Origin: Azonexus sp.
GTDB lineage: Bacteria > Pseudomonadota > Gammaproteobacteria > Burkholderiales > Rhodocyclaceae
NCBI RefSeq assembly: GCF_023150235.1
Contig: NZ_JAKLLH010000002.1
Span: 62,001 to 126,000, forward strand
Direction of reading: 5' to 3'
DNA length: 64,000 nt
The number at the start of each line of letters is the position of its first letter. Positions within the stretch are counted from its first letter, which is position 1. The position numbers and the translations under genes were made by a program. The notes beneath the pieces are model-generated. The model was not told the origin of the DNA and did no database searches. It saw only the letters and a list, made by a program, of their open reading frames with translations. Shown here piece by piece: positions 384-42,419 of the stretch.

Positions 384-397
384 CACGGTCGACCGTG
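384..397. repeat. Palindrome CACGGTCGACCGTG, copy 1
   Basis: Exact 14-nt palindrome in the truA-trpF spacer, 12 nt after the truA stop. One further base pair extends it (383/398), after which the flanks do not pair. It can fold as a 5-bp stem with a UCGA loop. A T-run precedes it and no U-tract follows directly, so it is not a classical terminator for truA. It is one of six copies in the window (384, 12361, 29647, 31746, 37729, 42398). Confidence 0.85.
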
Positions 398-453
398 ACT
401 CGCCTGTTTAAACTGCGATTTTTCTTCTCTCAGCTTTCCCTGATGCCTTCACG

Positions 454-1080
454 ATGACCCGAATCAAGATCTGCGGCCTGACCCGCGAAGCCGATGTCGA
501 TGCGGCGGTGGCGGCCGGCGCCGATGCGCTCGGTTTTGTCTTCTATCCGCCCAGCCCGCGCTACCTCAGCCCGCAGCGGGCGGCCGAACTGGTGGCGCGG
601 GTGCCGCCCTTTGTCGAGACGGTCGGCCTCTTCGTCAATGCCGAGTCGGAGACGGTGCGGGCGACCTGTGCCGCCGTGCCGCTCAATCTGCTGCAATTCC
701 ACGGCGACGAGGATGCCGACTACTGCCGGCAGTTCGCGCGACCCTGGCTGAAAGCGGCGCGGGTGAGGCCGGGATTGAATCTGCTAGAATTCGCGCGCTC
801 GTTCGCGGCAGCGCGCGGCCTGTTGCTCGATGCCTTCGTCGAAGGTTACGGCGGCGGTGGCCACGTGTTCGACTGGACGCTGATTCCGCCCGATCTGCCG
901 GGGCATTTGATCCTTTCCGGCGGGTTGACCGTGGACAACGTCGGCGACGCGATTGCGCGCCTGCGGCCGGCGGCGGTCGATGTTTCTTCCGGGGTCGAGG
1001 CGGGCAAGGGGATCAAGGATCATCAGAAAATGGCGGCTTTCGTCGCTGCCGTACGGGCAGCGGAGCAGATGGCCGCTTAG
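454..1080 (+). CDS. trpF: Phosphoribosylanthranilate isomerase
   Basis: Catalyses the Amadori rearrangement of phosphoribosylanthranilate to CdRP in tryptophan synthesis. The 208-residue protein has the usual single-domain (beta/alpha)8 length and starts with TRIKICGLTREADVDAA, carrying the catalytic Cys of the KICG motif. The C-terminal phosphate-binding end is also present: LSGGLTVDNVGDAI, then VDVSSGVEAGKGIKD. The ATG at 454 starts exactly at the conserved N-terminus, although no strong Shine-Dalgarno is visible. trpB and trpA follow after a 170-nt leader; trpC/trpD are not in the window, so the trp genes are split as is common in this group. Confidence 0.97.
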   Translation: MTRIKICGLTREADVDAAVAAGADALGFVFYPPSPRYLSPQRAAELVARVPPFVETVGLFVNAESETVRATCAAVPLNLLQFHGDEDADYCRQFARPWLKAARVRPGLNLLEFARSFAAARGLLLDAFVEGYGGGGHVFDWTLIPPDLPGHLILSGGLTVDNVGDAIARLRPAAVDVSSGVEAGKGIKDHQKMAAFVAAVRAAEQMAA

Positions 1081-1250
1081 GAAGTCGGGGCGCACGCGCA
1101 GCGGGCGCCGGTTTGCAGACGCAGAGAGAAAAGATGCGTAAATCAGCGGGTGGCATCACCCGGATGTGTTGGCGGCGCCATCTGGCGAATCATCCCTGAC
1201 TCAGGGCGGGTTCCCTTTACGTCCATTTTTTCTCTTCAAGGAAGATTGCC
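1081..1250 (+). other. trpF-trpB leader region
   Basis: A 170-nt gap within an otherwise tight gene run. It contains two small stem-loops, GGGTG-GCAT-CACCC near 1148-1161 and CCCTGA-c-TCAGGG at 1194-1206, and a T-run (about 1225-1231) before the trpB ribosome site AAGGA at 1239. A possible 21-codon ORF (1134-1199) has only one Trp codon, so it does not look like a trp attenuator peptide. A promoter or post-transcriptional control of trpBA is possible but not shown. Confidence 0.35.
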
Positions 1251-2468
1251 ATGTCCCAGAATTCGACCACCGCTCCCTACGCTTTCCCCGATGCCCAAGG
1301 CCACTTCGGCCCCTACGGCGGCGTTTTCGTCGCCGAAACCCTGTTCGGCGCCCTCGACGAACTGAAGGCTGCCTATGCCGCCGCCCAGGCCGACCCGGCC
1401 TTCCGCGCCGAATACGACTACGAACTCAAGCACTTCGTCGGCCGCCCGTCGCCGATTTATCACGCCAAGCGTCTCTCCGAAATTTGTGGCGGCGCCCAGA
1501 TCTACCTCAAGCGCGAAGACTTGAACCACACCGGCGCCCACAAGGTGAATAACTGCATCGGCCAGGCCTTGCTCGCCAAGCGCATGGGCAAGCCGCGCGT
1601 CATCGCCGAAACCGGTGCTGGCCAGCACGGCGTGGCGACGGCGACGGTCGCCGCCCGCTACGGCTTCGAGTGCGTGGTCTATATGGGCGCCGAGGATGTG
1701 CGCCGCCAGGCTGCCAACGTGTACCGGATGAAACTGCTCGGCGCCACCGTGGTGCCGGTCGAAAGCGGCTCCAAGACGCTCAAGGACGCGCTCAACGAAG
1801 CGATGCGCGACTGGGTCACCAACATCCACAACACCTTCTACATCATCGGCACCGTCGCCGGCCCGCACCCTTACCCGATGCTGGTCCGCGATTTCCAGAA
1901 GATCATCGGCGAGGAGTGCCTGGAGCAGATGCCGGAAATGGCCGGCCGTCAGCCGGATGCGGTGATCGCTGCGGTCGGTGGCGGTTCCAACGCGATGGGC
2001 ATCTTCTACCCCTACATCGACGTCCCCGGCGTTCGCCTGATCGGTGTCGAAGCCGCCGGCTCGGGGATCGAGACCGGCCAGCACGCGGCGTCGCTGACCG
2101 CCGGCGTCCCCGGCGTGCTGCACGGCAACCGTACCTACCTGCTGCAGGACGCCGACGGCCAGATCATCGAGACGCATTCGGTCTCGGCCGGCCTCGACTA
2201 CCCCGGCGTCGGCCCCGAGCACGCCTGGTTGAAGGACCTCGGTCGCGCCGAATACCAGCCGATCAAGGACGACGAAGCGCTCAAGGCCTTCCACGACCTG
2301 TGCCGGCTCGAAGGCATCATCCCGGCGCTCGAATCCAGCCACGCGCTGGCCTATGCGATGAAGCTGGCGCCGACCCTGGCCAAGGACAAGATCCTGCTGG
2401 TGAACCTGTCCGGTCGTGGCGACAAGGACATGCACACCGTCGCCGAAAAATCCGGGATTCAGTTCTAA
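1251..2468 (+). CDS. trpB: Tryptophan synthase beta chain
   Basis: PLP enzyme that condenses indole with serine, working as an alpha2-beta2 complex with TrpA. At 405 residues it has normal length. The PLP lysine is in HTGAHKVNN (about residues 86-94), followed by the [14 protein letters not shown] region and the glycine-rich phosphate loop VGGGSNAMG. The C-terminal LSGRGDKD motif is present. The ATG at 1251 is preceded by AAGGAAGATTGCC and gives the usual N-terminus before [15 protein letters not shown]. Only 27 nt separate it from trpA, so the two are surely co-transcribed. Confidence 0.98.
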
Positions 2469-2495
2469 GCCGCCCGCTCACGCCAGGAGAAAAAC

Positions 2496-3302
2496 ATGTC
2501 GCGTATTCAAAACACCTTTGCCCGGCTCAATGCGCAAGGGCGCAAGGCGCTGATCCCCTTCATCACCGCCGGCGACCCGGCGGCCGAACTGACCGTGCCG
2601 CTGATGCACGCGCTGGTCGAAGCCGGCGCCGACATCATCGAATTGGGCGTTCCTTTTTCCGACCCGATGGCCGACGGCCCGACCATCCAGCGCGCGTCCG
2701 AACGGGCGCTGGCCAAGGGCATGAGCCTGCGCAAGGTGCTGCAACTGGTCGCCAGCTTCCGCAGTGCCGACGATAAAACGCCGGTGGTGCTGATGGGCTA
2801 CGCCAACCCGATCGAGGCGATGGGGCAACAGACCTTCGCCGAAAAGGCGGCGCAGTCGGGCGTCGATGGCGTGCTGGTGGTTGATTATCCGCCGGAAGAG
2901 GCGGTCAGCTTCGGCGCCGCGATCAAGGCCAAGGGCCTCGATCCGATTTTCCTGATCGCGCCGACGTCGACCGTGGAACGCATCGAACAGGTCGCCGAAA
3001 TCGCTTCCGGCTATGTGTATTACGTGTCGCTGGCCGGGGTCACCGGTTCCGGCGCCTTGAATGTCGACGCCGTCGCCGAGAAGCTGCCGGCGATCCGGGC
3101 CAAGACCGGCCTGCCGGTCGGCGTCGGTTTTGGTATCCGCAACGCCGAAACGGCGGGGCGCATCGCCGGTTTTGCCGACGCCGTCGTGGTTGGTAGCCGG
3201 ATTATTGAAGAAATCGAGAAGTCGACCGTGGATAACGCCTGCGCCAACGTCAAGGCCTTGGTCGCCGATCTGCGGCGCGGGATGGATGAGGTAAAAGCAT
3301 GA
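2496..3302 (+). CDS. trpA: Tryptophan synthase alpha chain
   Basis: Cleaves indole-3-glycerol phosphate to indole and glyceraldehyde-3-phosphate, passing indole to TrpB. The 268-residue TIM barrel contains the catalytic Glu in [18 protein letters not shown] and the catalytic Asp in [11 protein letters not shown], and the phosphate-binding [10 protein letters not shown] near the C-terminus. A clear AGGAGAAAAAC ribosome site precedes the ATG. Its stop overlaps the accD start (ATGA at 3299), suggesting translational coupling in a trpBA-accD-folC operon. Confidence 0.98.
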
Positions 3303-4165: not shown

Positions 4166-5496
4166 GCCAGGCGATGCAGACGCTCGCCGACTGGCTGGCC
4201 CACCTCGAAGGCCTGCACCCCAAGGGGCAGGCCGGGATCGAGCTGGGGCTGGACCGTATCCGCCGGGTCAAGGACGCGCTCGGGCAGCAACAGCACTGCC
4301 CGGTGATCATCGTCGGCGGCACCAACGGCAAGGGCTCGACCTGCGCCTATCTGGAAAACATCCTCAAAAAGGGTGGCTATAAAGTCGGTTGCTACACCTC
4401 GCCGCATCTGCTCGCCTATAACGAGCGGGTCCGTGTCGATGGCCGGCCGATTGACGACGCCGCGCTGTGCGCCGCCTTTGCCCGGGTCGAAGCTGCGCGG
4501 CTCACCGCCGGTACCGACGGCGGGCCGGAGACCCTGACCTACTTCGAATTCGGCACCCTGGCTGCCTGGGAAGTCTTTGCCGCCGCCGGGATCGAGGTGG
4601 CGGTGCTCGAAATCGGCCTCGGCGGCCGCCTTGACGCGGTCAACGCCTACGAACCCGATATTTCCATCGTTACCGGGATTGCCCTCGACCATACCGACTG
4701 GCTGGGGCCGGACCGCGAAGCCATTGGCTTCGAAAAAGCCGGCATCTATCGCGCCGGCAAGCCGGCCTTCTGCGCCGATCCCAACCCGCCGCAAAGCCTG
4801 ATCGACCACGCGGCGGCGATTGGTGCCGATCTGCGTTTGCTCGGCCGCGATTTCGGCTTCGAGCGGCCGGCGGCCGAAGCTTCGGAAAACCGCTTGCAGT
4901 GGCGCTGGTGGTGCCAGAAGGACGGGCAATTGCTCAAGCGTGCGCTGGCTTACCCCGGCTTGCGCGGCCCGACCCAACTGCTCAACGCCAGTGTTGCGCT
5001 GGCGGCGCTGGAGGCCCTGACCCCGCGTTTGCCGGTGACCATGCAGGCGATCCGGCCGGGGCTGATCGAAACCGAACTCGCCGGCCGCTTCCAGGTGTTG
5101 CCGGGCAAGCCGGCCATCGTCCTCGACGTCGGCCACAATCCGCAGGCGGTCGCGGTGCTTGCCGGCAACCTGTCGAACATGGGCTTTTTTGACCGGACCC
5201 ACGCGGTGGTCGGGATGCTTGCCGATAAAGACATCGCCGGTGCGCTGCAGCCGCTCAAGGGGCGCGTCGACTACTGGCACCTGGCCACGCTGGACGGTCC
5301 GCGCGGCACCGCGGCCGAGGCGCTGGCGGCGATTGTCGCGGACGGCGACCTGGGCGGCGAGGTGTTTTGCCACCCGTCGCCGGAGGCCGCCACCGAGGCA
5401 GCCAAGGGGGTAGCAGGTGAAAGTGATAGAATTCTCGTCTTCGGTTCTTTCCTGACGGTCGCCGGCGCCCTGCGCGTGCTGCGTCCGCAATCCTGA
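4162..5496 (+). CDS. folC: Folylpolyglutamate/dihydrofolate synthase
   Basis: Mur-ligase-family enzyme that joins glutamate to dihydropteroate and then adds further glutamates to folates. The ATP loop is [10 protein letters not shown], followed by [15 protein letters not shown] and [11 protein letters not shown], all FolC hallmarks, and the C-terminal ligase domain has [10 protein letters not shown]-type sequence ([11 protein letters not shown]). The longest frame starts at TTG 4162, overlapping the accD stop; ATG 4174 ([16 protein letters not shown]) matches family N-termini equally well and may be the true start. It sits in the accD-folC-SPOR-cvpA-purF run seen in many proteobacteria. Confidence 0.96.
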
Positions 5497-5499
5497 GGC

Positions 5500-6309
5500 A
5501 TGGAAGACAACGACCCGCAACAGCATCTGAAAAAACGCGCCCGTCGCCGTCTGGTCGGCGCGGTCGCTTTCGCCTCGGTAGTCGCCGTGGTGCTGCCGAC
5601 GATCATGGATCAGGAGCCGCGCCAGCCGGTGCAGGATGTCGAAATCCGCATCCCCGGCCAGGACGAGAAGCCGTTTGCGCCCAAGTTTGCGCAGGCGCCG
5701 GCCGATTCCGTCGCCCACGGCGGGCCGGCCGAGCCGCCCCGCGCCACGGCGCGCGCCGGCGAAGCGGAAACGCCGGCCGTGAAGCCGCCAGCGGTAACGC
5801 CGCCAGCGGTGCCGACGGCCCGGCTGGTCGATACCGTGCCGGGCAAGCTCGATGCCGCAGCCGCCAGGTCCGGCGAAAAAGGCCCGGAAAAGCCGGCGGA
5901 AAAGCCGCCGGTCGAGTCCAAGCCGGGCAAGCTGCCGGAAAAAACCGGGGAAAAACCGCCCGAGAAGCCTGCCGACAAACCTGCCGACAAACTGGCCGCC
6001 AAGCCCGACGAAGGCAAGCGGGCGGCGGCAATCCTCGCCGGCCAGTTCGGCGAAGCGGCACCTGCGCCCGCAGCCAAGGGCGGCGAGCATCTGGTGCTGA
6101 TCGGTGCCTTCGCCAACGAAGGCAATGTCAAGATTCTCAAGAGCAAGCTTGGCGAGCTGAACATCAAGACTTACACCGAACCGCTCGATACGCCGCAGGG
6201 CCGCAAGATCCGCCTGCGGGCCGGGCCGTTCCCGAATCGCGATGCGGCGGAAAAGGCGCTGGAGAAAATGCGCCGGATTGGCGTTTCCGGTGTGGTTGCG
6301 CCCCGCTGA
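5500..6309 (+). CDS. SPOR-domain inner-membrane protein (DedD-like)
   Basis: A 269-residue bitopic protein. A short basic cytoplasmic N-terminus (KKRARRRLVGA) leads into a single transmembrane helix at about residues 17-34. A long low-complexity periplasmic linker rich in Pro, Lys and Glu follows, then a C-terminal SPOR domain (about 197-269, with HLVLIGAFANEGNV and RAGPFPNRDAAEKA). SPOR domains bind denuded septal peptidoglycan, so a cell-division role like that of E. coli DedD is inferred; the folC-dedD-cvpA-purF context is the same as in E. coli. Expansion of PPA/KP-type linker repeats is normal for the family. The cvpA start overlaps its stop. Confidence 0.9.
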   Translation: MEDNDPQQHLKKRARRRLVGAVAFASVVAVVLPTIMDQEPRQPVQDVEIRIPGQDEKPFAPKFAQAPADSVAHGGPAEPPRATARAGEAETPAVKPPAVTPPAVPTARLVDTVPGKLDAAAARSGEKGPEKPAEKPPVESKPGKLPEKTGEKPPEKPADKPADKLAAKPDEGKRAAAILAGQFGEAAPAPAAKGGEHLVLIGAFANEGNVKILKSKLGELNIKTYTEPLDTPQGRKIRLRAGPFPNRDAAEKALEKMRRIGVSGVVAPR

Positions 6310-6800
6310 TGACCATTTTCGATTACATCGTTCTCGCCATCGTCGGCTTGTCGCTGCTCTTCGGACTGTGGCGCGGCGTCGTCGGCGAGGTGATCGCACT
6401 CCTGGCGTGGGCACTTGCGGCGTTTGCCGCGGTCGAATTCGGCGTCATCGTCGGACAGCGGGTTTTTGACGGTGTCGCCGATCCGGCGATGCGAACCTTG
6501 GCCGGTTGCGTCCTGATCGTGGTTGGCGTGCTGGTGGCGATGGCTCTGGTGCGGATGGCCGTACGCAGCATGATCCAGGCGCTCGGGTTATCGGTATCGG
6601 ACCGCTTGCTCGGGATGCTGTTCGGGATTGCGCGCGGCGTGCTGGTGGCGCTGGTGCTGGTTGCGTTGGGCGGGATGACGGCGGCGCCGCAGCAAGGCTG
6701 GTGGCGGCAGGCGACCCTGGCTCCGGCACTGGAGATTGCGGTGCTGACCTTGCGCCCGTGGTTGCCGGAAGAACTGGCGAAGCGGATCAAATTTGGTTAA
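6309..6800 (+). CDS. cvpA: CvpA family membrane protein
   Basis: Small inner-membrane protein of the CvpA/colicin V production family. The 163 residues show four hydrophobic segments (about 5-20, 25-48, 63-85 and 103-125), with the usual IVLAIVGLSLLFGLWRG start. Its biochemical role is not settled; in enterobacteria it is linked to envelope stress and, through its neighbour purF, was once thought to be purine-related. The ATG overlaps the stop of the SPOR gene (TGATG). A 91-nt gap separates it from purF. Confidence 0.92.
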   Translation: MTIFDYIVLAIVGLSLLFGLWRGVVGEVIALLAWALAAFAAVEFGVIVGQRVFDGVADPAMRTLAGCVLIVVGVLVAMALVRMAVRSMIQALGLSVSDRLLGMLFGIARGVLVALVLVALGGMTAAPQQGWWRQATLAPALEIAVLTLRPWLPEELAKRIKFG

Positions 6801-6891
6801 TCGGAGGGTTGACCGTGGAAACGACCGGTTTTAGCCGGTGTTCGGCGGCGCAGCCCTCTCACTCGATTTAAATACTAGGCAGGAAAAGATT

Positions 6892-8430
6892 ATGTGCGGG
6901 ATTCTCGGTGTCATGGCAAATACGCCGGTCAACCAGTTGCTTTACGATGGCCTGATGGTGCTGCAGCACCGCGGCCAGGACGCTGCCGGCATCGCCACGG
7001 TCGAAGGCAACACCTTTCACCTGCATAAGGGGCCGGGGCTGGTGCGCGACGTGTTCCGCACCCGCAACATGCGGGCGCTGCCCGGCAACTGGGGGATCGG
7101 CCACGTCCGCTACCCGACCGCCGGTTCGGCCTACAACTTCGCCGAAGCGCAACCGTTCTACGTCAATTCGCCCTTCGGCATCGTCCTCGGTCACAACGGC
7201 AACCTGACCAATGCCGAGCAGCTCAAGGAAGAGATGTTCCGCATGGATCGCCGGCACATCAACACCAATTCCGATTCGGAAGTCCTGCTCAACGTCCTGG
7301 CGCACGAACTGCAAGCGGCTTCCTCGGGCTACGAACTCGATGTCGACGCGATCTTCCAGGCCGTTGCCGGGGTCCATCGCCGTTGCCGCGGCGCCTATGC
7401 CGTGGTCGCGCTGATCGCCGGCTACGGGCTGCTCGCCTTCCGCGATCCGCACGGCATCCGGCCGCTGGTCTATGGTCAGAACCAGACGGCGGAGGGCATG
7501 GAGTACCTGGTTTCCTCCGAGTCGGTCGCGCTCGATACCCTGGGCTTCAAGGTCGTGCGCGATCTGGAGCCGGGCGAGGCGATCTTCATCGACCTCGACA
7601 AGCAGCTGCACAGCCGCCAGTGCGCACAGCAGCCGCTGTATGCGCCGTGCATCTTCGAATACGTCTATCTCGCTCGTCCCGATACCGTGATCGATGGTGT
7701 TTCGGTGTACGAGGCCCGCTTGAAGATGGGTGAGGCCCTGGCCGAGAAGGTCAAGACCATGATCCCGGTCGAGGAAATCGACGTGGTGATTCCGATCCCC
7801 GATTCCAGCCGCCCATCGGCGATGCAACTGGCACAGGCGCTGAACATCCCGTTCCGCGAAGGTTTCGTCAAGAACCGCTACGTTGGTCGCACCTTCATCA
7901 TGCCGGGTCAGGCGATGCGCCGGAAATCGGTACGCCAGAAACTGAATACCGTCGGTCAGGAGTTCAAGGGCAAGCGCGTGCTGCTGGTCGACGACTCCAT
8001 CGTCCGCGGCACCACCAGCCGCGAAATCGTCGACATGGCGCGGGCCGCCGGTGCGGTCAAGGTCTATTTCGCCTCGGCTTCGCCCCCGGTGCGCTTCCCC
8101 AACGTGTACGGGATCGACATGCCGACGCGTGCTGAATTGATCGCCACCGGCCGTACCGATGTGCAGATCGCCGCCGAAATCGGCGCCGATGCGCTGGTTT
8201 ACCAGGATCTGGAAGCGATGAAACAGTCGATCACCGCGCTGCGTGCTGACCTGACCGTGTTCGACGCCGCCTGTTTCGACGGTTGCTACGTGACTGGCGA
8301 CATCGACGAGTACTACCTCGACGCGGTCGAAGGCAAGCGCGGCGGCAAGGCCGGCAAGAACGACGATGACGGCGACGGCAAAGCCTCGCAGCAACTGGCG
8401 TTGCAGGTTTCCGCAGGCGGTCAGGACTGA
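6892..8430 (+). CDS. purF: Amidophosphoribosyltransferase
   Basis: First committed enzyme of purine synthesis: uses glutamine and PRPP to make 5-phosphoribosylamine. The start was set at ATG 6892 rather than an upstream in-frame ATG (6838), because the glutaminase domain needs Cys right after the initiator (M-CGILGV). Class II glutaminase motifs (GHVRYPTAG, LGHNGNLTN) are followed by the phosphoribosyltransferase domain with the PRPP loop VLLVDDSIVRGTTSRE at about residues 363-378. Length is 512 residues. The end carries a Gly/Lys/Asp-rich tail beyond the conserved domain. The stop overlaps the metZ start (TGATG). Confidence 0.98.
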   Translation: MCGILGVMANTPVNQLLYDGLMVLQHRGQDAAGIATVEGNTFHLHKGPGLVRDVFRTRNMRALPGNWGIGHVRYPTAGSAYNFAEAQPFYVNSPFGIVLGHNGNLTNAEQLKEEMFRMDRRHINTNSDSEVLLNVLAHELQAASSGYELDVDAIFQAVAGVHRRCRGAYAVVALIAGYGLLAFRDPHGIRPLVYGQNQTAEGMEYLVSSESVALDTLGFKVVRDLEPGEAIFIDLDKQLHSRQCAQQPLYAPCIFEYVYLARPDTVIDGVSVYEARLKMGEALAEKVKTMIPVEEIDVVIPIPDSSRPSAMQLAQALNIPFREGFVKNRYVGRTFIMPGQAMRRKSVRQKLNTVGQEFKGKRVLLVDDSIVRGTTSREIVDMARAAGAVKVYFASASPPVRFPNVYGIDMPTRAELIATGRTDVQIAAEIGADALVYQDLEAMKQSITALRADLTVFDAACFDGCYVTGDIDEYYLDAVEGKRGGKAGKNDDDGDGKASQQLALQVSAGGQD

Positions 8431-9635
8431 TGGCCGGCGCGCTCGAAAAATTCGGCGCCGAGGGCGCCGCTTACCAGCCGGAAACCCTGGCGGTTCGTGC
8501 CGGGCAGGAGCGCAGCCAGTTCGGCGAGCACGCCGAGGCGCTTTACCTGACCTCCAGCTTCGTGTTCAAGAGCGCGGCCGAAGCGGCCCGCCGTTTTTCC
8601 GGTGAGGAAGTCGGCAACGTTTACGCCCGCTTCTCGAATCCGACCGTCAGCATGTTCGAGGAGCGCCTCGCCGCTCTCGAAGGCGCCGAGGCTTGCGTCG
8701 CCACCGCCAGCGGCATGGCCGCGATCATGGCGACGGTACTCGCCCACCTCAAGCAGGGCGATCACATCGTCGCCTCCAACAGCCTGTTCGGCGCCACCGT
8801 GCAGTTGTTCTCGAACATCCTGGCGCGTACCGGGATCACCACCACCTTCGTCGCACAGACCGATCCGGCGGCGTGGGAAGCGGCGATCCGGCCCGAGACC
8901 AAGCTGTTCTTCCTCGAAACCCCGTCGAACCCGCTGACCGAAATTGCCGATATCCGGGCGTTGACCGTGATCGCCAAGGCGCGCGGCATTCTGGTCGCAG
9001 TCGATAACTGTTTCTGCACCCCGATCCTGCAGAAACCGCTCGAACTCGGTGCCGATCTGGTGATCCATTCGGCGACCAAGTATCTCGACGGCCAGGGCCG
9101 CGTCCTCGGCGGTGCGGTCTGCGGCGCCAAGAAGCTGACCGACGAAGTCTTCAAATACCTGCGCACCGCCGGTCCGACGCTGTCGGCGTTCAACGCCTGG
9201 GTCCTGCTCAAGGGCCTGGAAACCTTGAAGCTGCGCGTCGAGGCGCAGGCCTCCAACGCCGCGCAACTGGCCGCCTGGCTGGAAGCGCATCCCAAGGTCG
9301 AACGGGTTTACTACCCCGGCCTGCCTTCGCATCCGCAATACGAACTGGCGCAGCGCCAGCAGAAGAGCGGCGGTGCGATTGTTTCCTTCGTCGTCAAGGG
9401 CGGCCGCGAACAGGCGTGGACGGTGGTCGACCACTGTCAGCTGCTGTCGATCACCGCCAACCTCGGCGATACCAAGACCACCATCACCCATCCGGCCTCG
9501 ACCACCCACGGTCGCATCACCCCGGAAGCCCGCGCGGCTGCCGGCATCGGCGAGGGCCTGCTGCGCATCGCCGTGGGCCTGGAGTCGGTGCTCGATCTGC
9601 AAGCCGACCTCGAACGCGGGCTGGCGCAGATTTGA
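8430..9635 (+). CDS. metZ: O-succinylhomoserine sulfhydrylase
   Basis: PLP enzyme of the Cys/Met metabolism family, inferred to make homocysteine directly from O-succinylhomoserine and sulfide. The PLP lysine is in HSATKYLDGQGRVLGG, the form characteristic of MetZ rather than MetB/MetC. Other family features are YARFSNPTVSMFEERLAALE near the N-terminus, ATASGMAAI, and the C-terminal NLGDTKTTITHPASTTH segment. The length of 401 residues is normal. It overlaps purF by one base, and the purF-metZ pairing is typical of betaproteobacteria and pseudomonads. O-acetylhomoserine use cannot be excluded from sequence alone. Confidence 0.94.
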   Translation: MAGALEKFGAEGAAYQPETLAVRAGQERSQFGEHAEALYLTSSFVFKSAAEAARRFSGEEVGNVYARFSNPTVSMFEERLAALEGAEACVATASGMAAIMATVLAHLKQGDHIVASNSLFGATVQLFSNILARTGITTTFVAQTDPAAWEAAIRPETKLFFLETPSNPLTEIADIRALTVIAKARGILVAVDNCFCTPILQKPLELGADLVIHSATKYLDGQGRVLGGAVCGAKKLTDEVFKYLRTAGPTLSAFNAWVLLKGLETLKLRVEAQASNAAQLAAWLEAHPKVERVYYPGLPSHPQYELAQRQQKSGGAIVSFVVKGGREQAWTVVDHCQLLSITANLGDTKTTITHPASTTHGRITPEARAAAGIGEGLLRIAVGLESVLDLQADLERGLAQI

Positions 9636-9736: not shown

Positions 9737-11029
9737 ATGAAATTTACCGACCTCGGCTTGAATGCCGAAATCCAGCGTGCCGTTGCCGAACAAGGCTACG
9801 ACACACCGACGCCGATCCAGCAACAGGCGATTCCCGCCGTGCTCGCCGGCCACGACCTGATGGCGACGGCCCAGACCGGCACCGGCAAGACTGCCGGGTT
9901 TACGCTGCCTATCCTGCAGCGACTCACCGCCGGGGCCAACGACCGCCTCAGCCGCGTTGCACGGACGCCGCGCGTACTGGTACTGACGCCGACCCGCGAA
10001 CTGGCGATCCAGGTCGAGGAGAGCGTGCGCACCTATGGCAAGCACTTGCCGATCAATTCGGTCGCGGTCTTTGGCGGCGTCGGCATCAACCCGCAGATCG
10101 GCCATTTGCGTCGCGGCGTCGATATCCTGGTGGCGACGCCGGGTCGTCTGCTCGACCATGTGCAGCAATCCACGGTCAACCTCGGCGCGATCGAGATTTT
10201 CGTTCTCGACGAAGCCGACCGCATGCTCGACATGGGCTTCATCCGCGATATCCGCAAGATCATCGCGTTGCTGCCCAAGGAACGGCAGAACCTGCTCTTC
10301 TCGGCGACCTTCTCGCCGGAAATCCGCGAGCTGGCGACCGGCCTGCTGCAGCAGCCGGTCAGTGTCGATGTCGCGCCGCGCAATACCGCGGCCGAAACCG
10401 TCAAGCAAACGGTGATCGAGACCAATCGCGAGCAGAAAAAGGATTTGCTCGAGCAGCTGTTCACCGAACGCAGCCTGCACCAGGTGCTGGTTTTTGCCCG
10501 CACCAAGCACGGTGCCGACGCGTTGGCGCGCAAGCTCGACAAGGCCGGGATCAAGGCCGGCGCGATCCACGGCGACAAGTCGCAAGGGGCACGCACCCGC
10601 GTGCTCAGTGAATTCAAGGAAGGCAAGCTGGCGGCACTGGTCGCCACCGACATCGCCGCGCGCGGCATCGACATCGACGGCTTGCCCTACGTGATCAACT
10701 ACGAGCTGCCCAACGTTCCCGAGGATTACGTGCACCGGATCGGTCGTACCGGCCGTGCCGGGATGGAAGGCGAGGCGATTTCGCTGGTCTGCCACGAAGA
10801 GCGGCCGCAGCTCAAGGACATCGAGAAGCTGATACGGCGTTCGCTTGATCGGGTGGTCGTCCCCGGTTTCGAGGCGGCCGCCCAGGCCACCCCGCGTCCG
10901 CCGCAGCCCGCACCGGGCAAGCGCACCGGTCAGCCGGGCCGCAAGAGTGGCGGCGAAGGCTCCGGCGGCAAGAAGCCGGGCAGTCCGCGCAACGGCCAGC
11001 CGCATCGCAGCGGCAGCCGCCACCGCTGA
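9737..11029 (+). CDS. rhlE: DEAD-box RNA helicase (RhlE type)
   Basis: ATP-dependent RNA helicase, probably acting in ribosome assembly or mRNA decay. The start was placed at ATG 9737 ([13 protein letters not shown]) after a TTTCAGGA ribosome site, 24 nt inside the longest GTG frame. It has the Q motif ([11 protein letters not shown]), motif [12 protein letters not shown], motif Ia [10 protein letters not shown], motif [15 protein letters not shown], motif III FSATF and motif [12 protein letters not shown]. The last 60 or so residues form a basic, Gly/Pro/Arg-rich tail typical of RhlE proteins. It stands alone between metZ and the HD-GYP gene. Confidence 0.94.
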
Positions 11030-12341: not shown

Positions 12342-12350
12342 GGCATTTTG

Positions 12351-12382
12351 GGCAATTTTCACGGTCGACCGTGAAAATTGCC
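12351..12382. repeat. 32-nt perfect palindrome, copy 2 of the CACGGTCGACCGTG family
   Basis: The core CACGGTCGACCGTG lies at 12360-12373. The flanks GGCAATTTT and AAAATTGCC extend the symmetry without a mismatch to 32 nt. As RNA it would form a 14-bp stem with a UCGA loop. The sequence ATTTTTC follows directly on the + strand, so this copy could terminate transcription of the HD-GYP gene, whose stop lies 9 nt upstream. Confidence 0.92.
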
Positions 12383-12556
12383 ATTTTTCCCGGATTTCCG
12401 GCGTTTTTGCCATCTTTCGCCCACTGCTTTGCTGGCGGCGCTCCGCTTTGGCCGCAATCCATGCTCACGGCTTGCCCGGCCGGGTAAAAGCCGTTAACGT
12501 TGCGCGTTGCTGCCGACCGGCGGCGAATGCAGATAAATCCACTTTCGGAGCCAGGG

Positions 12557-14266
12557 ATGCCCCCCCCGCAGAAAATCCGTCTCGGCGACCTGCTGATCGA
12601 GCAGGGCTTGTTGACCCAGGAGCAGCTGAAAGCCTCGCTGGATCAGCAAAAGGCGACCGGGCGCAAGCTGGGGCGGATTTTCGTCGATAGCGGCTACGTC
12701 ACCGAGGAGGGCATCTCGCAGGCCCTGGCACGCCAGTTGCGGGCGCCCTTCATCGACCTGCGCGGTTTCAAGCCGCCCGATGAAAAATTGCTCAAGCTGT
12801 TGAGCGAAGCGCAGGCCCGCCGTTTCCGGGCGCTGGTGCTGGGTGAGGAAGAGGGTCTGTTGCGAGTCGGTTTTGCCGATCCGACCGATCTGCAGACCTA
12901 CGACGAGGTGGCTCGCCTGGTCCGCCGTGAAATGAGCATCGCGGTGGTCACCGAGTCGCAATTGCTGGCGCTGATCGACCGCGTTTACCGCCGTACCGAG
13001 GAAATTACCGGCCTGGCCAAGGAGTTGACCGCCGAACTCGGCGAGTCCACGGTCGATTTCGGCGATGTGATGGGCCTCACCGCGAGCGTTGAAGATGCGC
13101 CGGTGGTCAAGCTGATCCACACCGTGTTCGACGAAGCGATGCGCTCGCGCGCCTCCGATATCCACATCGAGCCGGAAGAAAAAAAGCTGCGCATCCGTTT
13201 CCGGATCGACGGCGTGCTGCACATCCAGACCGAAGCCGACATCAAGGTCGCCGGGGCGCTCGCCCTGCGCCTGAAGCTGATGTCCGGCCTCGATATTTCC
13301 GAAAAACGCTTGCCGCAGGACGGCCGTTTCAACGTCAAGGTGCGCAATGTCTCGGTCGATATCCGCATCTCGACCTTGCCGACCCAGCACGGCGAATCGG
13401 TGGTGATGCGTCTGCTGGCACAGAATGCTGGCCTGCTCAGCCTCGACGCGGTCAGCATGCCGAAGAAGGTGCTCGAAGTCTTGCGCCGGGCGATCGCCAA
13501 GCCGTCCGGGATCGTCCTGGTCACCGGTCCGACCGGCTCGGGCAAGACGACGACGCTCTACGCGGCGCTGAACGACCTGAATTCGCCGGAGCGCAAGATT
13601 CTCACCGTCGAGGACCCGGTCGAATACCGCTTGCCGGGGATCAATCAGGTCCAGGTCCAGGACAAGATCGACCTGACTTTTGGCCGCGTCCTGCGGGCAG
13701 CGCTGCGCCAGGATCCGGACGTGATCCTGGTCGGCGAAATGCGCGACCAGGAAACCGCCGAAATCGGCCTGCGGGCCGCGATGACCGGCCACCTGGTGCT
13801 GTCCACCCTGCACACCAACGATGTGCTATCGACCCCGATCCGCCTGCTCGACATGGGCGTGCCGCGCTACATGGTCGCGCTCAGCCTGCAACTGGTGATG
13901 GCGCAGCGCCTGGTGCGGGTGATCTGCGAAAGCTGCCGCCAGCCGCATGCGCCGACGCCGACCGAGCATGCCTGGCTGCTCGACGCGCTGAAGGGCTACA
14001 AGAACGAGCCGCGCGCCTTCAAGGGGGTGGGGTGCGAGCAGTGCAACATGACCGGCTACCAGGGACGAACCGGGGTCTATGAGTACCTCGAGATGACCAA
14101 CGACATCGTCGATGCGCTCAACGACCCCGACCCCAATCGCTACGTCCAGGTGGCACGCCGGCAAATGGCCGGCAATACCCTGCGCGACGACGCCCTGCGC
14201 CTGGTCATGACCGGCCGGACGACGGTGGACGAGGCGATGCGGATCACCGGGCAGGTGGACGACTGA
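12557..14266 (+). CDS. mshE: MSHA pilus assembly ATPase MshE
   Basis: GspE/PilB-family hexameric ATPase that powers pilus extension at the inner membrane. The start chosen is ATG 12557 (after GGAGCCAGGG), giving 569 residues. Residues 8-31 match the 24-residue MshEN c-di-GMP-binding pattern RLGxx(LVI)(LVI)xxG(LVI)(LVI)xxxxLxxxLxxQ. After a five-residue spacer a second, looser copy spans 37-60. The ATPase core has Walker A GPTGSGKTTTLY, Walker B-type ILVGEMRDQETA, and the metal-binding CESC...CEQC pair near the C-terminus. It begins the first msh block and overlaps mshG (TGATG). Confidence 0.95.
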   Translation: MPPPQKIRLGDLLIEQGLLTQEQLKASLDQQKATGRKLGRIFVDSGYVTEEGISQALARQLRAPFIDLRGFKPPDEKLLKLLSEAQARRFRALVLGEEEGLLRVGFADPTDLQTYDEVARLVRREMSIAVVTESQLLALIDRVYRRTEEITGLAKELTAELGESTVDFGDVMGLTASVEDAPVVKLIHTVFDEAMRSRASDIHIEPEEKKLRIRFRIDGVLHIQTEADIKVAGALALRLKLMSGLDISEKRLPQDGRFNVKVRNVSVDIRISTLPTQHGESVVMRLLAQNAGLLSLDAVSMPKKVLEVLRRAIAKPSGIVLVTGPTGSGKTTTLYAALNDLNSPERKILTVEDPVEYRLPGINQVQVQDKIDLTFGRVLRAALRQDPDVILVGEMRDQETAEIGLRAAMTGHLVLSTLHTNDVLSTPIRLLDMGVPRYMVALSLQLVMAQRLVRVICESCRQPHAPTPTEHAWLLDALKGYKNEPRAFKGVGCEQCNMTGYQGRTGVYEYLEMTNDIVDALNDPDPNRYVQVARRQMAGNTLRDDALRLVMTGRTTVDEAMRITGQVDD

Positions 14267-15498
14267 TGCCTTACTTTGAATACACCGGCCGGGCCGGCGA
14301 CGGTAGCGAAGCGCGCGGCGTGCTCGAAGCGGCAACGTCCGGTGCCGCCGCCGACCAGCTGTTGCAGCGCGGCATCCGGCCGGTGCGGATCGTGCCCGGC
14401 AAAGCGCCAAGCGCCGGCTTCGATCTCGGCGCGGTCTTTGCCAATCTGAACAAGCCCAAGATCCTGCCCATCGACGTGATGCTCTTCACCCGCCAACTGC
14501 ACACCCTGCTGCGTGCCGGCGTTCCCATCCTGCGGGCGCTTGCCGGCTTGCAGGAATCGATGAGCAATCGTTCGATGCAGGCGGTGTTGCAGGACATCCG
14601 CGACAGCCTGCAAAGCGGACGCGAGTTGTCCGCCTGCTTCGCCAAGCATCCGCGCATCTTTACCCCCTTCTACATATCGATGGTGCGAGTCGGCGAAATG
14701 ACCGGCCTGCTCGAGGAAATCTTCATCCGCCTCTACGAGCACCTCGATTTCGAGCGTTTCATGCGCGAGCAGGTCAAATCCGCGCTCCGCTATCCCAGCT
14801 TCGTCGTCCTCGCCATGGCGGTCGCCATCGTCATCGTCAATCTCTTCGTGATCCCGGCCTTCGCCAAGGTTTTTGCCGGCTTCAAGGTGCAACTGCCCCT
14901 GATGACGCGAATCCTGATCGGCTTTTCCGATTTCATGCAGAACTACTGGTACGTGATGCTGGCGGCAGTCATCGCCGCCGTCTTTGCCTTCCGCTCATGG
15001 ACCTCGACGGCTGGCGGCCTCTACCAATGGGACCGGATCAAGATGCGTATTCCGGTGGCCGGCAAGATCGTGCAGAAAGCAACCCTTGCCCGCTTTTCCC
15101 GCAGCTTCGCGCTCGCTTTCCGCAGCGGCGTGCCGGTCATCCAAGGCCTGTCCAACGTCGCGCTCACGGTCGACAACGCCTATGTGGCAAAAAAGATCGA
15201 AGGCATGCGCGAAACCGTCGAACGCGGCGATACCGTGCTCCGCGCCGCCGTCGCCTCGGGTATCTTCACTCCGGTGGTCCTGCAGATGATCGCCGTCGGC
15301 GAAGAGTCCGGCGCCCTCGACGAAATGATGGGCGAAGTCGCCGAGATGTATCAGCGCGAAGTCGAATACGAACTGAAGACCCTGGCGCAGCAGATCGAGC
15401 CCATTCTCATCGTCTTCCTCGGCGCCCTGGTCCTGGTCCTGGCCCTGGGCATCTTCCTCCCCCTGTGGGACCTCGGCAAAGCCGCCAAGGGAGGCTGA
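14266..15498 (+). CDS. mshG: MSHA pilus inner-membrane platform protein MshG
   Basis: GspF/PilC-family polytopic protein forming the platform on which the ATPase MshE acts. The 410-residue protein has two T2SSF repeats, the first around residues 70-190 (LFTRQLHTLLRAGVPILRAL) and the second around 270-395 (FSRSFALAFRSGVPVIQGL). Three strong hydrophobic segments are seen at about 170-190, 222-242 and 377-400. It starts inside the mshE stop and ends just before a pseudopilin gene. Confidence 0.95.
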   Translation: MPYFEYTGRAGDGSEARGVLEAATSGAAADQLLQRGIRPVRIVPGKAPSAGFDLGAVFANLNKPKILPIDVMLFTRQLHTLLRAGVPILRALAGLQESMSNRSMQAVLQDIRDSLQSGRELSACFAKHPRIFTPFYISMVRVGEMTGLLEEIFIRLYEHLDFERFMREQVKSALRYPSFVVLAMAVAIVIVNLFVIPAFAKVFAGFKVQLPLMTRILIGFSDFMQNYWYVMLAAVIAAVFAFRSWTSTAGGLYQWDRIKMRIPVAGKIVQKATLARFSRSFALAFRSGVPVIQGLSNVALTVDNAYVAKKIEGMRETVERGDTVLRAAVASGIFTPVVLQMIAVGEESGALDEMMGEVAEMYQREVEYELKTLAQQIEPILIVFLGALVLVLALGIFLPLWDLGKAAKGG

Positions 15499-15500
15499 CA

Positions 15501-29626: not shown

Positions 29627-29646
29627 GGGCAAAAAAGCCGCTTTTC

Positions 29647-29660
29647 CACGGTCGACCGTG
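29647..29660. repeat. Palindrome CACGGTCGACCGTG, copy 3
   Basis: Exact 14-nt palindrome 20 nt downstream of the mshN stop, in the convergent mshN/recQ gap. The outer flanks contain GGGCAAAA on the left and TTTTCGCCC on the right, which could pair with one bulge to enclose the core in a longer imperfect stem. A short TTTT lies within the right arm. Confidence 0.85.
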
Positions 29661-29720
29661 ATCGAGGCCCGATTTTCGCCCGGATGCCGATGCGGCGGAT
29701 GGTTCCGCCTGGGAGAAGCA

Positions 29721-29903: not shown

Positions 29904-31745
<1,842 letters not shown>

Positions 31746-31748
<3 letters not shown>

Positions 31749-31759
31749 GGTCGACCGTG
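31746..31759. repeat. Palindrome CACGGTCGACCGTG, copy 4
   Basis: Exact 14-nt palindrome between lpxH and recQ (both - strand), 50 nt after the lpxH stop and overlapping the putative GTG start of recQ. The outer arms AAATGGC (31733-31739) and GCCATTT (31766-31772) are complementary and symmetric about the same centre, separated from the core by a 6x6 internal loop, giving a 40-nt imperfect dyad. Confidence 0.85.
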
Positions 31760-31809
31760 GCAGAAGCCATTTTTTGGGCAGGCGGGCGTTCCGCCGTAAG
31801 TGCGGGAAT

Positions 31810-32541: not shown

Positions 32542-33035
32542 ACGATTTCCGCTTTTTCGATGATCACGTCCTCGACCGGAACATCCTGGTGGAAACCCTT
32601 GTTGCCGGTGCGCACGGCACGAATGGCGTCGACCACGTCGAGGCCTTCGACCACTTCGCCGAAGACGCAGTAGCCCCAGCCCTGGCCCATCGGCGCCTTG
32701 AAGTCGAGGAAGTCGTTATCGACGGTATTGATGAAGAACTGGGCGGTCGCCGAGTGCGGATCGTTGGTGCGGGCCATGGCGATGCTGCCGCGCTTGTTCT
32801 TGAGGCCGTTGGCAGCCTCGTTCTCGATCGGGTCCAGGGTCGGCTTCTGCTCCATGCCGACGGCAAAGCCACCGCCCTGGATCATGAAGTTCTTGATCAC
32901 GCGGTGAAAAACGGTGCCACTGTAGTGGCCGGATTCGACGTAGGCGAGGAAGTTGGCCACGGTTTTCGGAGCCTTCTCGGCATCCAGCTGCAGGGTAATG
33001 GTGCCGTGGTTGGTGCTCAGTTTGACTTGCGACAT
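32538..33035 (-). CDS. ppiB: Cytoplasmic peptidyl-prolyl cis-trans isomerase B
   Basis: Single-domain cyclophilin of 165 residues with no signal peptide, so cytoplasmic. Cyclophilin signatures are [16 protein letters not shown], the active-site Arg-Phe region, [21 protein letters not shown] and [12 protein letters not shown]. It lies 12 nt downstream of ppiA and overlaps lpxH. The tandem with the exported homologue suggests a local duplication followed by separate localisation. Confidence 0.95.
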
Positions 33036-33047: not shown

Positions 33048-33635
33048 TTATTTTTCGGAAATGATCTTGACGTCGTGGATGACGACGGGCGTCACCGGAA
33101 CGTTTTCGTAATAGCCTTGGCTGCCGGTGGGCTGCTTGGCGATCTTGTCGACGATATCCATGCCCTGGGTCACCTTGCCGAACACGGTGTAGCCCCAGGA
33201 GCGCCCGTCGGTTGGAGCCCGGTGGTTGAGGAAATCGTTGTTCTTCAGGTTGATGAAGAACTGCACTCGCGCCGAGTGCGGGTCGGCGGTGCGGGCCATG
33301 GCCAGCGTGCCGCGCTCGTTGCCGAGGCCATTGCCGGCTTCGTTCTGCAGGGCCGGCGTGCGGGTCTTCTTTTCTTCCATCGCCGGCGTGAAACCGCCGC
33401 CCTGGATCATGAAACCGTCGATCACGCGGTGGAAGATGGTGCCTTCGTAAAAACCGTGCCTGGCGTTGTAGATGAACATCTCGACCGTGCGCGGTGCCTT
33501 CTCCGGGTAGAGTTCCAGCGTGAGCTTGCCGTGCGAGGTATTCATTTCCAGGGTCGGTGCGGCGCTGACCAGGGCCGAGGCGACAAGACCGGCAATCAGG
33601 CTGCCGCTACGGACGATGAACGATGTGTGGCGCAT
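33048..33635 (-). CDS. ppiA: Periplasmic peptidyl-prolyl cis-trans isomerase
   Basis: Cyclophilin of 195 residues with a signal peptide (FIVRSGSLIAGLVASALVSA), hence periplasmic. It contains [39 protein letters not shown] and WGYTVFGKVTQG. The start at 33635 was chosen because it begins the signal peptide and forms a TGATG overlap with the stop of the upstream transpeptidase-family gene; a longer open frame (to 34007) is not credible. A role in folding of envelope proteins is inferred. Confidence 0.94.
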   Translation of the reverse strand: MRHTSFIVRSGSLIAGLVASALVSAAPTLEMNTSHGKLTLELYPEKAPRTVEMFIYNARHGFYEGTIFHRVIDGFMIQGGGFTPAMEEKKTRTPALQNEAGNGLGNERGTLAMARTADPHSARVQFFINLKNNDFLNHRAPTDGRSWGYTVFGKVTQGMDIVDKIAKQPTGSQGYYENVPVTPVVIHDVKIISEK

Positions 33636-37702: not shown

Positions 37703-37728
37703 GGTGCCGGATGAAAAACCGCCAAAAA

Positions 37729-37742
37729 CCCGGTCGACCGTG
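37729..37742. repeat. Palindrome, copy 5 (CCCGGTCGACCGTG)
   Basis: One mismatch from the family core (C instead of A at 37730). It lies in the convergent cysS/binding-protein gap, 22 nt beyond the end of the - strand gene and 87 nt after cysS. ACCGCC (37718-37723) and GGCGGT (37749-37754) can pair around it. Confidence 0.7.
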
Positions 37743-37763
37743 GCGGGCGGCGGTGCTGCCGGA

Positions 37764-39046: not shown

Positions 39047-39084
39047 TGGAGAGGGGAAAAGGATGCCGGGGGCGGATGGGGCGA

Positions 39085-40224
<1,140 letters not shown>

Positions 40225-40229
40225 TTTTT

Positions 40230-40359: not shown

Positions 40360-40368
40360 GACGGATCC

Positions 40369-42312
40369 TTACTTCTTGTCCTTGTTCACTTCCGTGAATT
40401 CGGCATCGACCACGTCGCCTTCGACTGTCTTTTCCTTGGCCGGTTGTTGCTGTCCGCCCGCGGCGCCTGCTGCAGCACCGGCTTCGGCCTGCTGTTGGGC
40501 ATACATCTTTTCACCCAGCTTCTGGGCCGCGGTGGACAGGGCTTCGGTCTTGGCCGTGATGACGTCCTTGTCGCCGTCGCGCAGCACGTCCTCGACGTCC
40601 TTGATCGCGGCTTCGATGGCTTCCTTCTCGCCAGCATCGAGCTTGTCGCCGTATTCGGTCAGCGATTTCTTGACCATGTGCACCATGCCATCAGCCTGGT
40701 TGCGGGCGTCGGCCAGCTCGTGCGCCTTCTTGTCTTCTTCGGCGTGCAGCTCGGCGTCCTTGACCATGCGTTGGATTTCTTCCTCGCTGAGGCCGGAGTT
40801 GGCCTTGATGGTGATCTTGTTTTCCTTGCCGGTGGCCTTGTCCTTGGCGGTGACGTGCATGATGCCGTTGGCGTCGATGTCGAAAATGACTTCGATTTGC
40901 GGCGTGCCGCGGGGGGCCGGCGGGATGCCTTCGAGGTTGAACTGGCCGAGGCTCTTGTTGCCGGCGGCGACTTCGCGCTCGCCCTGCAGCACGTGGATGG
41001 TCACCGCGCCCTGGTTGTCGTCGGCGGTCGAGAAGACTTGCGAGGCCTTGGTCGGGATGGTGGTGTTCTTCTGGATCAGCTTGGTCATGATGCCGCCCAG
41101 GGTTTCGATACCGAGCGACAGCGGGGTCACGTCGAGCAGCAGCACGTCCTTGACTTCGCCCTGCAGCACGCCGCCCTGGATGGCGGCGCCGACGGCGACG
41201 GCTTCATCCGGGTTGACGTCCTTGCGCGGCTCCTTGCCGAAGATTTCCTTGACCTTCTCCTGGACCTTGGGCATACGCGACTGGCCGCCGACCAGGATCA
41301 CGTCGTCGATGTCACCGATCTTGCAGCCGGCGTCCTTCAGTGCGGTGACGCAGGGCGCGACGGTACGCTCGACCAGTTCGTCGACCAGCGACTCGAACTT
41401 GGCACGGGTGATCTTCAGCGCCAGGTGCTTCGGACCGGAAGCATCAGCGGTGATGTAGGGCAGGTTGATTTCGGTCTGCTGGCTGGAAGAGAGCTCGATC
41501 TTGGCCTTTTCGGCGGCTTCCTTGAGGCGTTGCAGCGCCAGCACGTCCTTCTTCAGGTCGACGCCGGATTCCTTCTTGAATTCGTCGATGATGTAGTCGA
41601 TCAGGCGCTGGTCGAAGTCTTCGCCGCCCAGGAAGGTGTCGCCGTTAGTGGCCAGTACTTCAAACTGCTTTTCGCCATCGACGTCGGCGATTTCGATGAT
41701 GGAGATGTCGAAGGTGCCGCCGCCGAGGTCATAGACGGCGATCTTCTTGTCCTTGCCGGACACCTTGTCCATGCCGAAGGCCAGCGCCGCTGCGGTCGGT
41801 TCGTTGATGATGCGCTTGACTTCCAGACCGGCGATGCGACCGGCGTCCTTGGTCGCCTGGCGCTGGCTGTCGTTGAAGTAGGCAGGCACGGTGATGACCG
41901 CTTCGGTGACTTCCTCGCCGAGGTAGTCTTCGGCGGTCTTCTTCATCTTGCGCAGCACTTCGGCGGAAACCTGCGGCGGGGCGATTTTCTTGTCGCGCGC
42001 TTCGACCCAGGCGTCGCCGTTGTCGGCCTTGACGATCTTGAAGGGCATCAGGGCGATGTCCTTCTGTACTTCCTTCTCCTCGAAGCGGCGGCCAATCAGG
42101 CGCTTGACCGCGTACAGCGTGTTCTTCGGGTTGGTCACGGCCTGGCGCTTGGCCGGCGCACCGCAGAGGATTTCGCCGTCTTCGGTGTAGCCAATGACCG
42201 ACGGGGTGGTGCGCGCGCCTTCGGCGTTTTCGATGACTTTCGGCTGACCGCCTTCCATGATCGCGACGCAGCTGTTGGTGGTGCCGAGGTCAATACCAAT
42301 GATCTTGCCCAT
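40369..42312 (-). CDS. dnaK: Chaperone protein DnaK
   Basis: Hsp70 chaperone of 647 residues. The nucleotide-binding domain has [15 protein letters not shown] at the start, [13 protein letters not shown] (phosphate 2) and [13 protein letters not shown]. The substrate domain includes [18 protein letters not shown] and the hydrophobic linker region before it. The lid ends in a Gly/Ala/Gln-rich tail and [10 protein letters not shown]. It has its own sigma-32-type promoter at 42350-42377 and lies between grpE and dnaJ. Confidence 0.99.
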
Positions 42313-42349
42313 GTTCTGTTCCTTGCTAGGTAAATTGCTGATGTTCGTG

Positions 42350-42377
42350 AATTGGGGGCTGACTTTCCGATTTCAAG
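42350..42377 (-). promoter_or_regulatory. Sigma-32 heat-shock promoter of dnaK
   Basis: On the - strand, CTTGAAA (complement of 42371-42377) and CCCCAATT (complement of 42350-42357) are 13 nt apart, close to the sigma-32 consensus CTTGAAA-N11-16-CCCCATNT. It starts 38 nt upstream of the dnaK ATG, so dnaK can be induced separately from grpE. Confidence 0.75.
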
Positions 42378-42389
42378 CGCCCATTTCCA

Positions 42390-42419
42390 GCGATTTTTAC
42401 GGTCGACCGTGAAAATCGC
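42390..42419. repeat. Palindrome, copy 6, extended to 30 nt
   Basis: Core ACGGTCGACCGT with a single T/G mismatch next to it (42398/42411), then eight further paired positions: left arm GCGATTTT, right arm AAAATCGC. The outer arms differ from those of the 12351 copy (GGCAATTTT) yet still pair. It lies 11 nt after the grpE stop and just upstream of the dnaK heat-shock promoter. No U-tract follows in the direction of grpE transcription. Confidence 0.85.

Follow-up and report, generated by a model that had tools for sequence, protein, structure and literature searches.

A stretch of 64,000 nucleotides from Azonexus sp. (Rhodocyclaceae; contig NZ_JAKLLH010000002.1, positions 62,001 to 126,000; hereafter the window) carries scattered copies of the palindrome CACGGTCGACCGTG, and the question raised by this locus is what kind of element recurs here. 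A preliminary description of the window had listed exact copies at positions 384, 12360, 29647 and 31746 and copies with one mismatch at 37729 and 42398. All six were recovered, and two-mismatch copies were also found at 23559 and 46440. As set out below, the palindrome consists of two inverted directional units that overlap by GTCGAC, and the units form a much larger family with a CGGTCRAC core and a distant A/T tract. By analogy with known systems, we put the probability that this family is a DNA uptake sequence, marking DNA of the own species for uptake, at about 80%.

Directional units in the palindrome

The eight window copies with at most two mismatches confirm the suspected excess over chance (expected mean 0.52; none of 100 shuffles reached eight). 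Counted over the whole 3.4-Mb Azonexus sp. genome (G000; other G-numbers denote relatives), exact palindromes number 187, and 279 copies with at most one mismatch compare with 3 for the reversed pattern. The exact palindrome was searched for in 149 genomes, the own genome and 148 relatives. G064 contained 164 copies, G030 17, G018 11 and the other congeners searched 0-2 each, and none was present in 73 genomes outside the genus, where families other than Rhodocyclaceae were searched with the exact palindrome alone. The palindrome family is real and lineage-bound. Perfect palindromes NNCGGTCGACCGN'N' totalled 27 in the sampled sequence of G000 (462 kb) and 41 in that of G064 (569 kb); the remaining samples, mostly small, had 0-4 each, with 4 for G030 (140 kb) and 2 for G008 (20 kb). 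Rfam at gathering thresholds gave no match in the window. A literature search by sequence string returned nothing relevant by title among the matches listed for GGTCGACC and no match for ACGGTCGACCGT.

The most over-represented 10-mer in the G000 samples was the half unit CACGGTCGAC and not the centre of the palindrome (134 copies in 462 kb, 9.9 expected). The unit is about 29 bp long and can be written as a dialect pair NN, CGGTCRAC, N6, a weak 3-base A/T patch, N5, A and WWWW (R, A or G; W, A or T). In the spelling of G000, the core CACGGTCRAC occupies positions 0-9, the weak A/T patch lies at +16 to +18 and a near-invariant A/T tract lies at +25 to +28. In profiles of exact palindromes, one set of A/T blocks adjoined the palindrome and a second lay 18-22 bases away from its centre; in the middle of the second, A and T together made up 94-100%, and either base could be used. 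Where the left arm of the palindrome was lost (three of three bases changed), the far tract became one-sided, with A/T fractions of 0.94 versus 0.34 in G000 (n = 8) and 0.95 versus 0.50 in G064 (n = 5). Alignment of 139 single sites gave A/T fractions of 0.86-0.98 at +25 to +28, the strong tract spanning positions 24-28, and 96 coding single sites gave 0.83-0.97 at +25 to +28, with orientations relative to the gene of 46 versus 50. The samples of G000 and G064 contained 374 CACGGTCRAC words; WWWW stood at +25 to +28 in 273 of them and three consecutive A/T within +24 to +29 in 357, and the reversed word was seen eight times. In the window, 20 of 23 such words had all four A/T bases. Copies had little in common outside the core and the A/T positions, and their spacers were unshared. 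A fixed core combined with an A/T tract in which A and T are used about equally suggests recognition by a protein, including recognition of DNA shape. A DNA-binding site, one of three options offered in the preliminary description, was thus right in kind; the REP-like option failed, and that of a 3'-end element holds only for the location of inverted pairs.

Coding and intergenic counts are approximate, as genes were called with a custom hexamer caller, and the called coding fraction of 0.81-0.85 in the G000 and G064 samples implies that genes were somewhat under-called. The earlier statement that copies lie between genes stood for the palindromes, five of the six named copies being outside called genes (the copy at 31746 shares 3 bases with the start of recQ), but not for the family, since 11 of the 24 full directional sites in the window are within called genes. 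Comparison of coding with intergenic positions, as had been proposed, placed 15 of the 63 exact palindromes of the G000 and G064 samples in coding sequence, 29 in convergent, 17 in tandem and 1 in divergent gaps and 1 at an edge, though convergent gaps make up only 20.7 of 149.7 kb of intergenic sequence. Among sites outside exact palindromes, 164 of 262 were coding. The two strands were balanced (72 versus 77 sites), also within each of five blocks, and spacing was more even than random (coefficient of variation 0.76 versus 0.96, standard deviation 0.08). The longest site-free stretch sampled, 12.2 kb (G000:C40:123983-136231, that is, window position 61983 to the end plus L024), has 54% G+C versus 62% for the window and contains a tRNA-Leu gene. 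Other strongly over-represented words in the G000 samples, TGACCCCTTT/AAAGGGGTCA, AAACATGTTT and GGTTGAATCT, reached 18-25 copies per 462 kb and may belong to a repeat array or family of their own.

Abundance, dialects and turnover across the genus

Genome-wide counts were made with the pattern CGGTCRAC-N15-WWWW, and the same pattern reversed served as control. G000 contained 1148 full sites (control 23) and G064 contained 1162 (control 16). Within the genus, represented by 76 genomes, the counts were bimodal: 40 genomes had 391-1785 sites and 36 had 9-159, with none between 159 and 391 and controls of 4-31. Eight site-poor genomes (G005, G061, G067, G045, G046, G047, G007 and G044) were above controls at 88-159 sites, which may reflect decaying losses or sites imported from relatives rich in them; the sites listed for G045 are concentrated on some of its contigs. 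In a family sample of 316 genomes, 13 of them from the genus, the other 303 genomes from 67 genera had at most 27 sites each. Propionivibrio and Accumulibacter, the nearest named relatives by dnaK among the best 80 loci, fell outside the genus on the tree and had no full motif in those stretches. A core-free scan of five genomes, in which any 7-mer was tried with WWWW at a fixed distance, ranked the CGGTCRAC-plus-tract motif above all other signals in G000, G059 and G073; nothing comparable and no alternative motif of that architecture was found in G065 and G034.

The inner core CGGTCRAC and the far tract were constant, whereas the first two bases varied by clade as CA, TG, GA or AG/GG. The TG spelling was seen in G059, G060 and G008 (20-kb sample), CG and TG in G031, CA and GA in G030, and AG, GG and GA in G038; G073 had sites CACGGTCAAC with a longer A-rich patch. 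Genome-wide, TG accounted for 40 of 1148 sites in G000, 511 of 989 in G059, 514 of 994 in G060, 898 of 1234 in G008 and 1145 of 1785 in G050. A tree of three genes for 21 of the 76 genomes, with strong support for 9 of 21 inner branches, showed that sister pairs have their dialect in common. The CGGTCAAC variant of G073, G042 and G068 (six sites each in the latter two) had a stronger first A/T patch at +13 to +18 and extra A/T at about +31 to +34, as though recognition extended further in this clade.

Orthologous positions, counted where a site had 400-base flanks and a covering match, were compared between the sister species G000 and G064. Matches covered 45 of 141 sites; 39 of the 45 were gap-free and 6 were gapped, and the full motif was present in 32 of the 39. 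Core bases 2-9 were 95-100% identical and the tract 92-97%, compared with 72-95% (mean about 84%) for the spacer and 85% for the flanks. Some codon positions swap spelling between species, with CACGGTCAAC in the own genome and TGCGGTCAAC in G059 (905-933) or in both G059 and G060 (8941-8969). Thus, sites change in place mostly by substitution and not by insertion. In G065, which has 15 sites genome-wide, the motif was kept at 0 of 15 covered positions.

On the tree, the deepest-drawn branch (G000 plus G064) is site-rich, the branch joining the remainder having a support of 84/73. With a cut at 200 sites, the four site-poor genomes are scattered over three positions, which takes a minimum of three changes. 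That the deepest-drawn branch is site-rich suggests an ancestor that already had sites; at least three losses would then have followed.

A proposed uptake sequence and rival explanations

The interpretation as an uptake sequence was drawn from features observed directly in the genomes: the copy number, the directional core with its tract, dialects, change by point mutation, sites inside genes, inverted pairs at gene ends, even spacing and patchy absence. In the mechanism we propose, the site would be read by a receptor for DNA on the cell surface, a component of the type IV pilus machine for uptake and most probably a minor pilin, through base contacts in the core and through minor-groove shape in the A/T tracts. 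Same-species DNA would consequently be taken up preferentially. Fragments taken up would recombine back, and the uptake bias would fix new copies that arise by point mutation of near-matches, within genes and between genes alike. Shifts in receptor specificity would give rise to species dialects. Overlapping inverted units would make one place readable from both strands, and the palindromes accumulate at convergent gene ends, where the sequence is free.

Machinery of the kind assumed is present in the genus. A ComEC domain was found in 12 of 12 genomes tested and DprA in 75 of 76, both including G000, and a pilin match of the ComP_DUS family (PF16732) was found in 70 of 76; the G000 copy adjoins GspH, PilW and PilY1 genes. 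Minor-pilin neighbourhoods from 20 genomes (14 site-rich and 6 poor or low, with the weaker of two matches used for G060) did not separate rich from poor genomes.

Four other explanations were weighed against an uptake sequence. In the first place, spread as REP/BIME or MITE-like mobile palindromes (repetitive extragenic palindromes, bacterial interspersed mosaic elements, miniature inverted-repeat transposable elements) by a REP-associated tyrosine transposase (RAYT) would account for the many dispersed and mostly extragenic palindromes, and two Y1 transposase genes do occur in G000 (C35:61854-62183, L016; C25:69115-69450, L020). However, the search for a RAYT flanked by copies, suggested in the preliminary description, came out against it, as there was no CACGGTCRAC within 1.5 kb of either gene and the single-contig genome G064 had 164 exact copies and no Y1_Tnp match. 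Copies were also not homologous along their length, single sites lay inside genes, and the sister orthologues were mostly gap-free through the site. On the basis of in-place substitution, unshared spacers, the Y1-less G064 and the lack of copies flanking Y1 genes, mobile palindromes were rejected as scarcely credible. A conserved intrinsic terminator hairpin would fit the 48 of 63 palindromes outside called genes and the preference for convergent gaps, and some copies do have a long stem with a T run, for example 42390-42419 (plus strand). A terminator should show A on the left and T on the right of the stem, but the outer tracts of the 63 palindromes read A/T in 8, T/A in 10, T/T in 10 and A/A in 8 and were mixed on one or both sides in 27. 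This result also removes the structured 3'-end element as the identity of the family. In addition, sites outside exact palindromes were mostly genic, and the T run of the hairpin at 42390 is on the strand opposite to dnaK and grpE. The terminator was rejected as a class, a GC stem with a T tract not being general, and we regard it as very improbable; individual copies can qualify, and termination may be a secondary role at some convergent ends.

A target of restriction-modification or orphan methylation centred on GTCGAC was suggested by the palindromic nature of this hexamer and its over-representation within the site. Non-palindromic GTCAAC forms, however, made up 28% of 347 sites and carried the same tract, and they outnumbered GTCGAC by 40 to 15 in the G073 sample; a methylation target would, moreover, need no tract 15 bases away. 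We consider this explanation hardly tenable. More weight is due to binding by a protein that organises the nucleoid or chromosome and is specific to the genus, although this explanation too appears unlikely. MatP, SlmA, Noc and HU/IHF-like proteins are models for such organisers. A core with a minor-groove tract is a general pattern of protein-DNA recognition, and about a thousand evenly spaced, strand-neutral sites would suit it. Clade-specific spelling of outer bases over a fixed core and near-absence from 36 of 76 congeners would nonetheless be unusual for an essential organiser. The sites also lie within coding sequence in both orientations, and the five contiguous blocks showed none of the local strand polarity expected of Chi or KOPS (FtsK orienting polar sequences).

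Several observations weigh against an uptake sequence. Many features of the family would also be expected if a chromosome-binding protein specific to the genus had this site. Preferential uptake, the receptor and molecular drive are what we infer and not what we observed. ComEC, DprA and ComP_DUS occur in site-poor genomes as well, so that no tested gene tracks the motif; site-poor species may be competent without a preference. The PF16732 matches are a mix of minor pilins and not clean orthologues, the site-rich genome G018 gave no DprA match, and ComEC matches were partial or split in site-rich G018 and G002, as in site-poor G034. Uptake sequences should be depleted in foreign DNA; the longest site-free stretch is not convincingly foreign. 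Finally, among covered places, G059 kept the full motif at 4 of 12, G060 at 4 of 15 and G030 at 6 of 9, and in a first, smaller run the figures were 0 of 12 for G073 and 2 of 3 for G031. Turnover would explain such poor conservation beyond sister species, which is no proof of it. As for the G034 ComEC domain, it is split over two overlapping reading frames (G034:C1:1959178-1959913), which may reflect breakage of the gene or a mistake in the assembly.

Window sites and comparison with known uptake systems

The 24 full sites of the window comprise the halves of palindromes and single sites. The palindrome at 384 consists of two CA-dialect sites, a left half at 369-397 (minus strand) and a right half at 384-412 (plus). 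Left and right halves lie at 12345-12373 (minus) and 12360-12388 (plus) for the palindrome at 12360, and at 29632-29660 (minus) and 29647-29675 (plus) for that at 29647. At 31746, the right half occupies 31746-31774 (plus); the left half, 31731-31759 (minus), has its far tract shifted inwards and is therefore outside the 24. The one-mismatch copy at 37729 is a one-sided site (37714-37742, minus). The inverted pair between dnaK and grpE is made up of a left half at 42383-42411 (minus) and a right half at 42398-42426 (plus); the latter has TA as its first pair, is kept in G064 and G030 and is absent from G065.

Within genes, the site CACGGTCAAC at 905-933 (minus) is located in the phosphoribosylanthranilate isomerase gene (454-1080), at a position where G059 has the TG dialect. 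The gene at 2496-3302 contains two sites: 2947-2975 (minus), spelled GA at that position in G030, and 3202-3230 (minus), where the G030 sequence is identical and the motif is absent from G059, G060 and G065. The site at 4635-4663 (plus; gene 4174-5496) has CG as its first pair and corresponds to a TG core with a broken far tract in G059 and G060. At 8941-8969 (minus; gene 8430-9635), the same position is TG in G059 and G060, CG in G030 and without a site in G065. Further genic sites are at 10171-10199 (plus; gene 9737-11029), 15165-15193 (plus; T2SSF, PilC/GspF-like gene 14266-15498), 23559-23587 (plus; gene 23065-23790, a two-mismatch palindrome copy), 46425-46453 (minus; gene 45944-47047, the two-mismatch copy at 46440), 49431-49459 (plus; gene 49050-50711) and 55880-55908 (minus; gene 54466-57672, first pair TG). 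One site, 6789-6817 (minus), is at the 3' edge of the gene at 6309-6800. Two are outside called genes, 57734-57762 (minus; first pair TA) and 61984-62012 (minus), around which the caller probably missed genes.

Apart from the sites, consecutive genes at 12557-16001 encode an ATPase (T2SSE/MshEN), a T2SSF protein and an N-methylated prepilin; they form a type IV pilus, MSHA-like (mannose-sensitive haemagglutinin) or type II secretion cluster. Two 97-nt stretches at 32728-32824 and 33250-33346, 79% alike and 522 bases apart in neighbouring minus-strand genes, are probably tandemly duplicated genes.

The DNA uptake sequences (DUS) of Neisseriaceae are described in PMC3630211 as having hundreds to thousands of copies, a short directional core, dialects over a fixed inner core, genic and intergenic placement and inverted pairs at gene ends. 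Judged against that account, the CGGTCRAC family resembles them in copy number, directionality, dialects and placement. It differs in sequence: that paper gives the DUS 10-mer an inner CTG and a final A, whereas the core here is NNCGGTCRAC. The strong A/T tract 15 bases downstream is a further difference, and the inverted pair overlaps by 6 bp here, whereas DUS pairs are non-overlapping according to PMC3630211. Inverted DUS pairs are also ascribed a role as terminators there. Like inverted DUS and uptake signal sequence (USS) terminators, the palindromic pairs described here are enriched at 3' ends, mainly convergent ones; they differ in lacking an outer A-left/T-right bias, which makes termination at most incidental.

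The USS of Pasteurellaceae combine a core with A/T tracts, the shape of which is important in uptake, and number more than 1000 copies in Haemophilus (PMC7811141); they have two dialects (PMC12616744). The present family is similar to them in its core and A/T tracts, its roughly one thousand copies and its dialects. The USS cores given in PMC12616744, AAGTGCGGT and ACAAGCGGT, are not those of our sites. Only the TG dialect shares TGCGGT with the Haemophilus influenzae-type (Hin-USS) core AAGTGCGGT as given there; the rest differs, CGAC coming next. The lineage is distant, and the origin is probably independent. The strong tract is also placed differently: its centre lies about 22 bases past the shared GCGG, whereas in Haemophilus the tract is nearer to GCGG by about half a helical turn.

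In PMC7811141, sequence-specific uptake preference is stated to be confined to Pasteurellaceae and Neisseriaceae, mostly on mucosal surfaces, and this two-family view has influenced theories about the reasons behind a bacterial preference for own DNA. Our search of open-licence papers found no report of uptake sequences for Rhodocyclaceae or Dechloromonas, which leaves absence from print unproven. We think it likely that the family represents a third, independent system by which natural transformation recognises own DNA, in free-living Rhodocyclaceae and not in the host-associated Neisseriaceae or Pasteurellaceae, with about 400-1800 copies in 40 of 76 species and several dialects, that it probably predates the genus and was lost at least three times, and that it often takes a palindromic, two-way form in one lineage (G000 and G064). 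If this is true, a third origin in apparently environmental bacteria would make the rise of uptake sequences, change of dialect and loss comparatively testable, the presence and absence of sites in 76 species would provide a table for finding the receptor, and the right dialect placed on DNA would give a practical handle for transformation. Of the features that define uptake sequences, high copy number, directionality, dialects that follow phylogeny, origin in place by point mutation, inverted pairs at gene ends and competence machinery are present in this family; a cognate receptor, depletion in foreign DNA and, decisively, preferential uptake are predicted. Set beside the DUS and the USS, it is probably a new, independent variant of the same kind.

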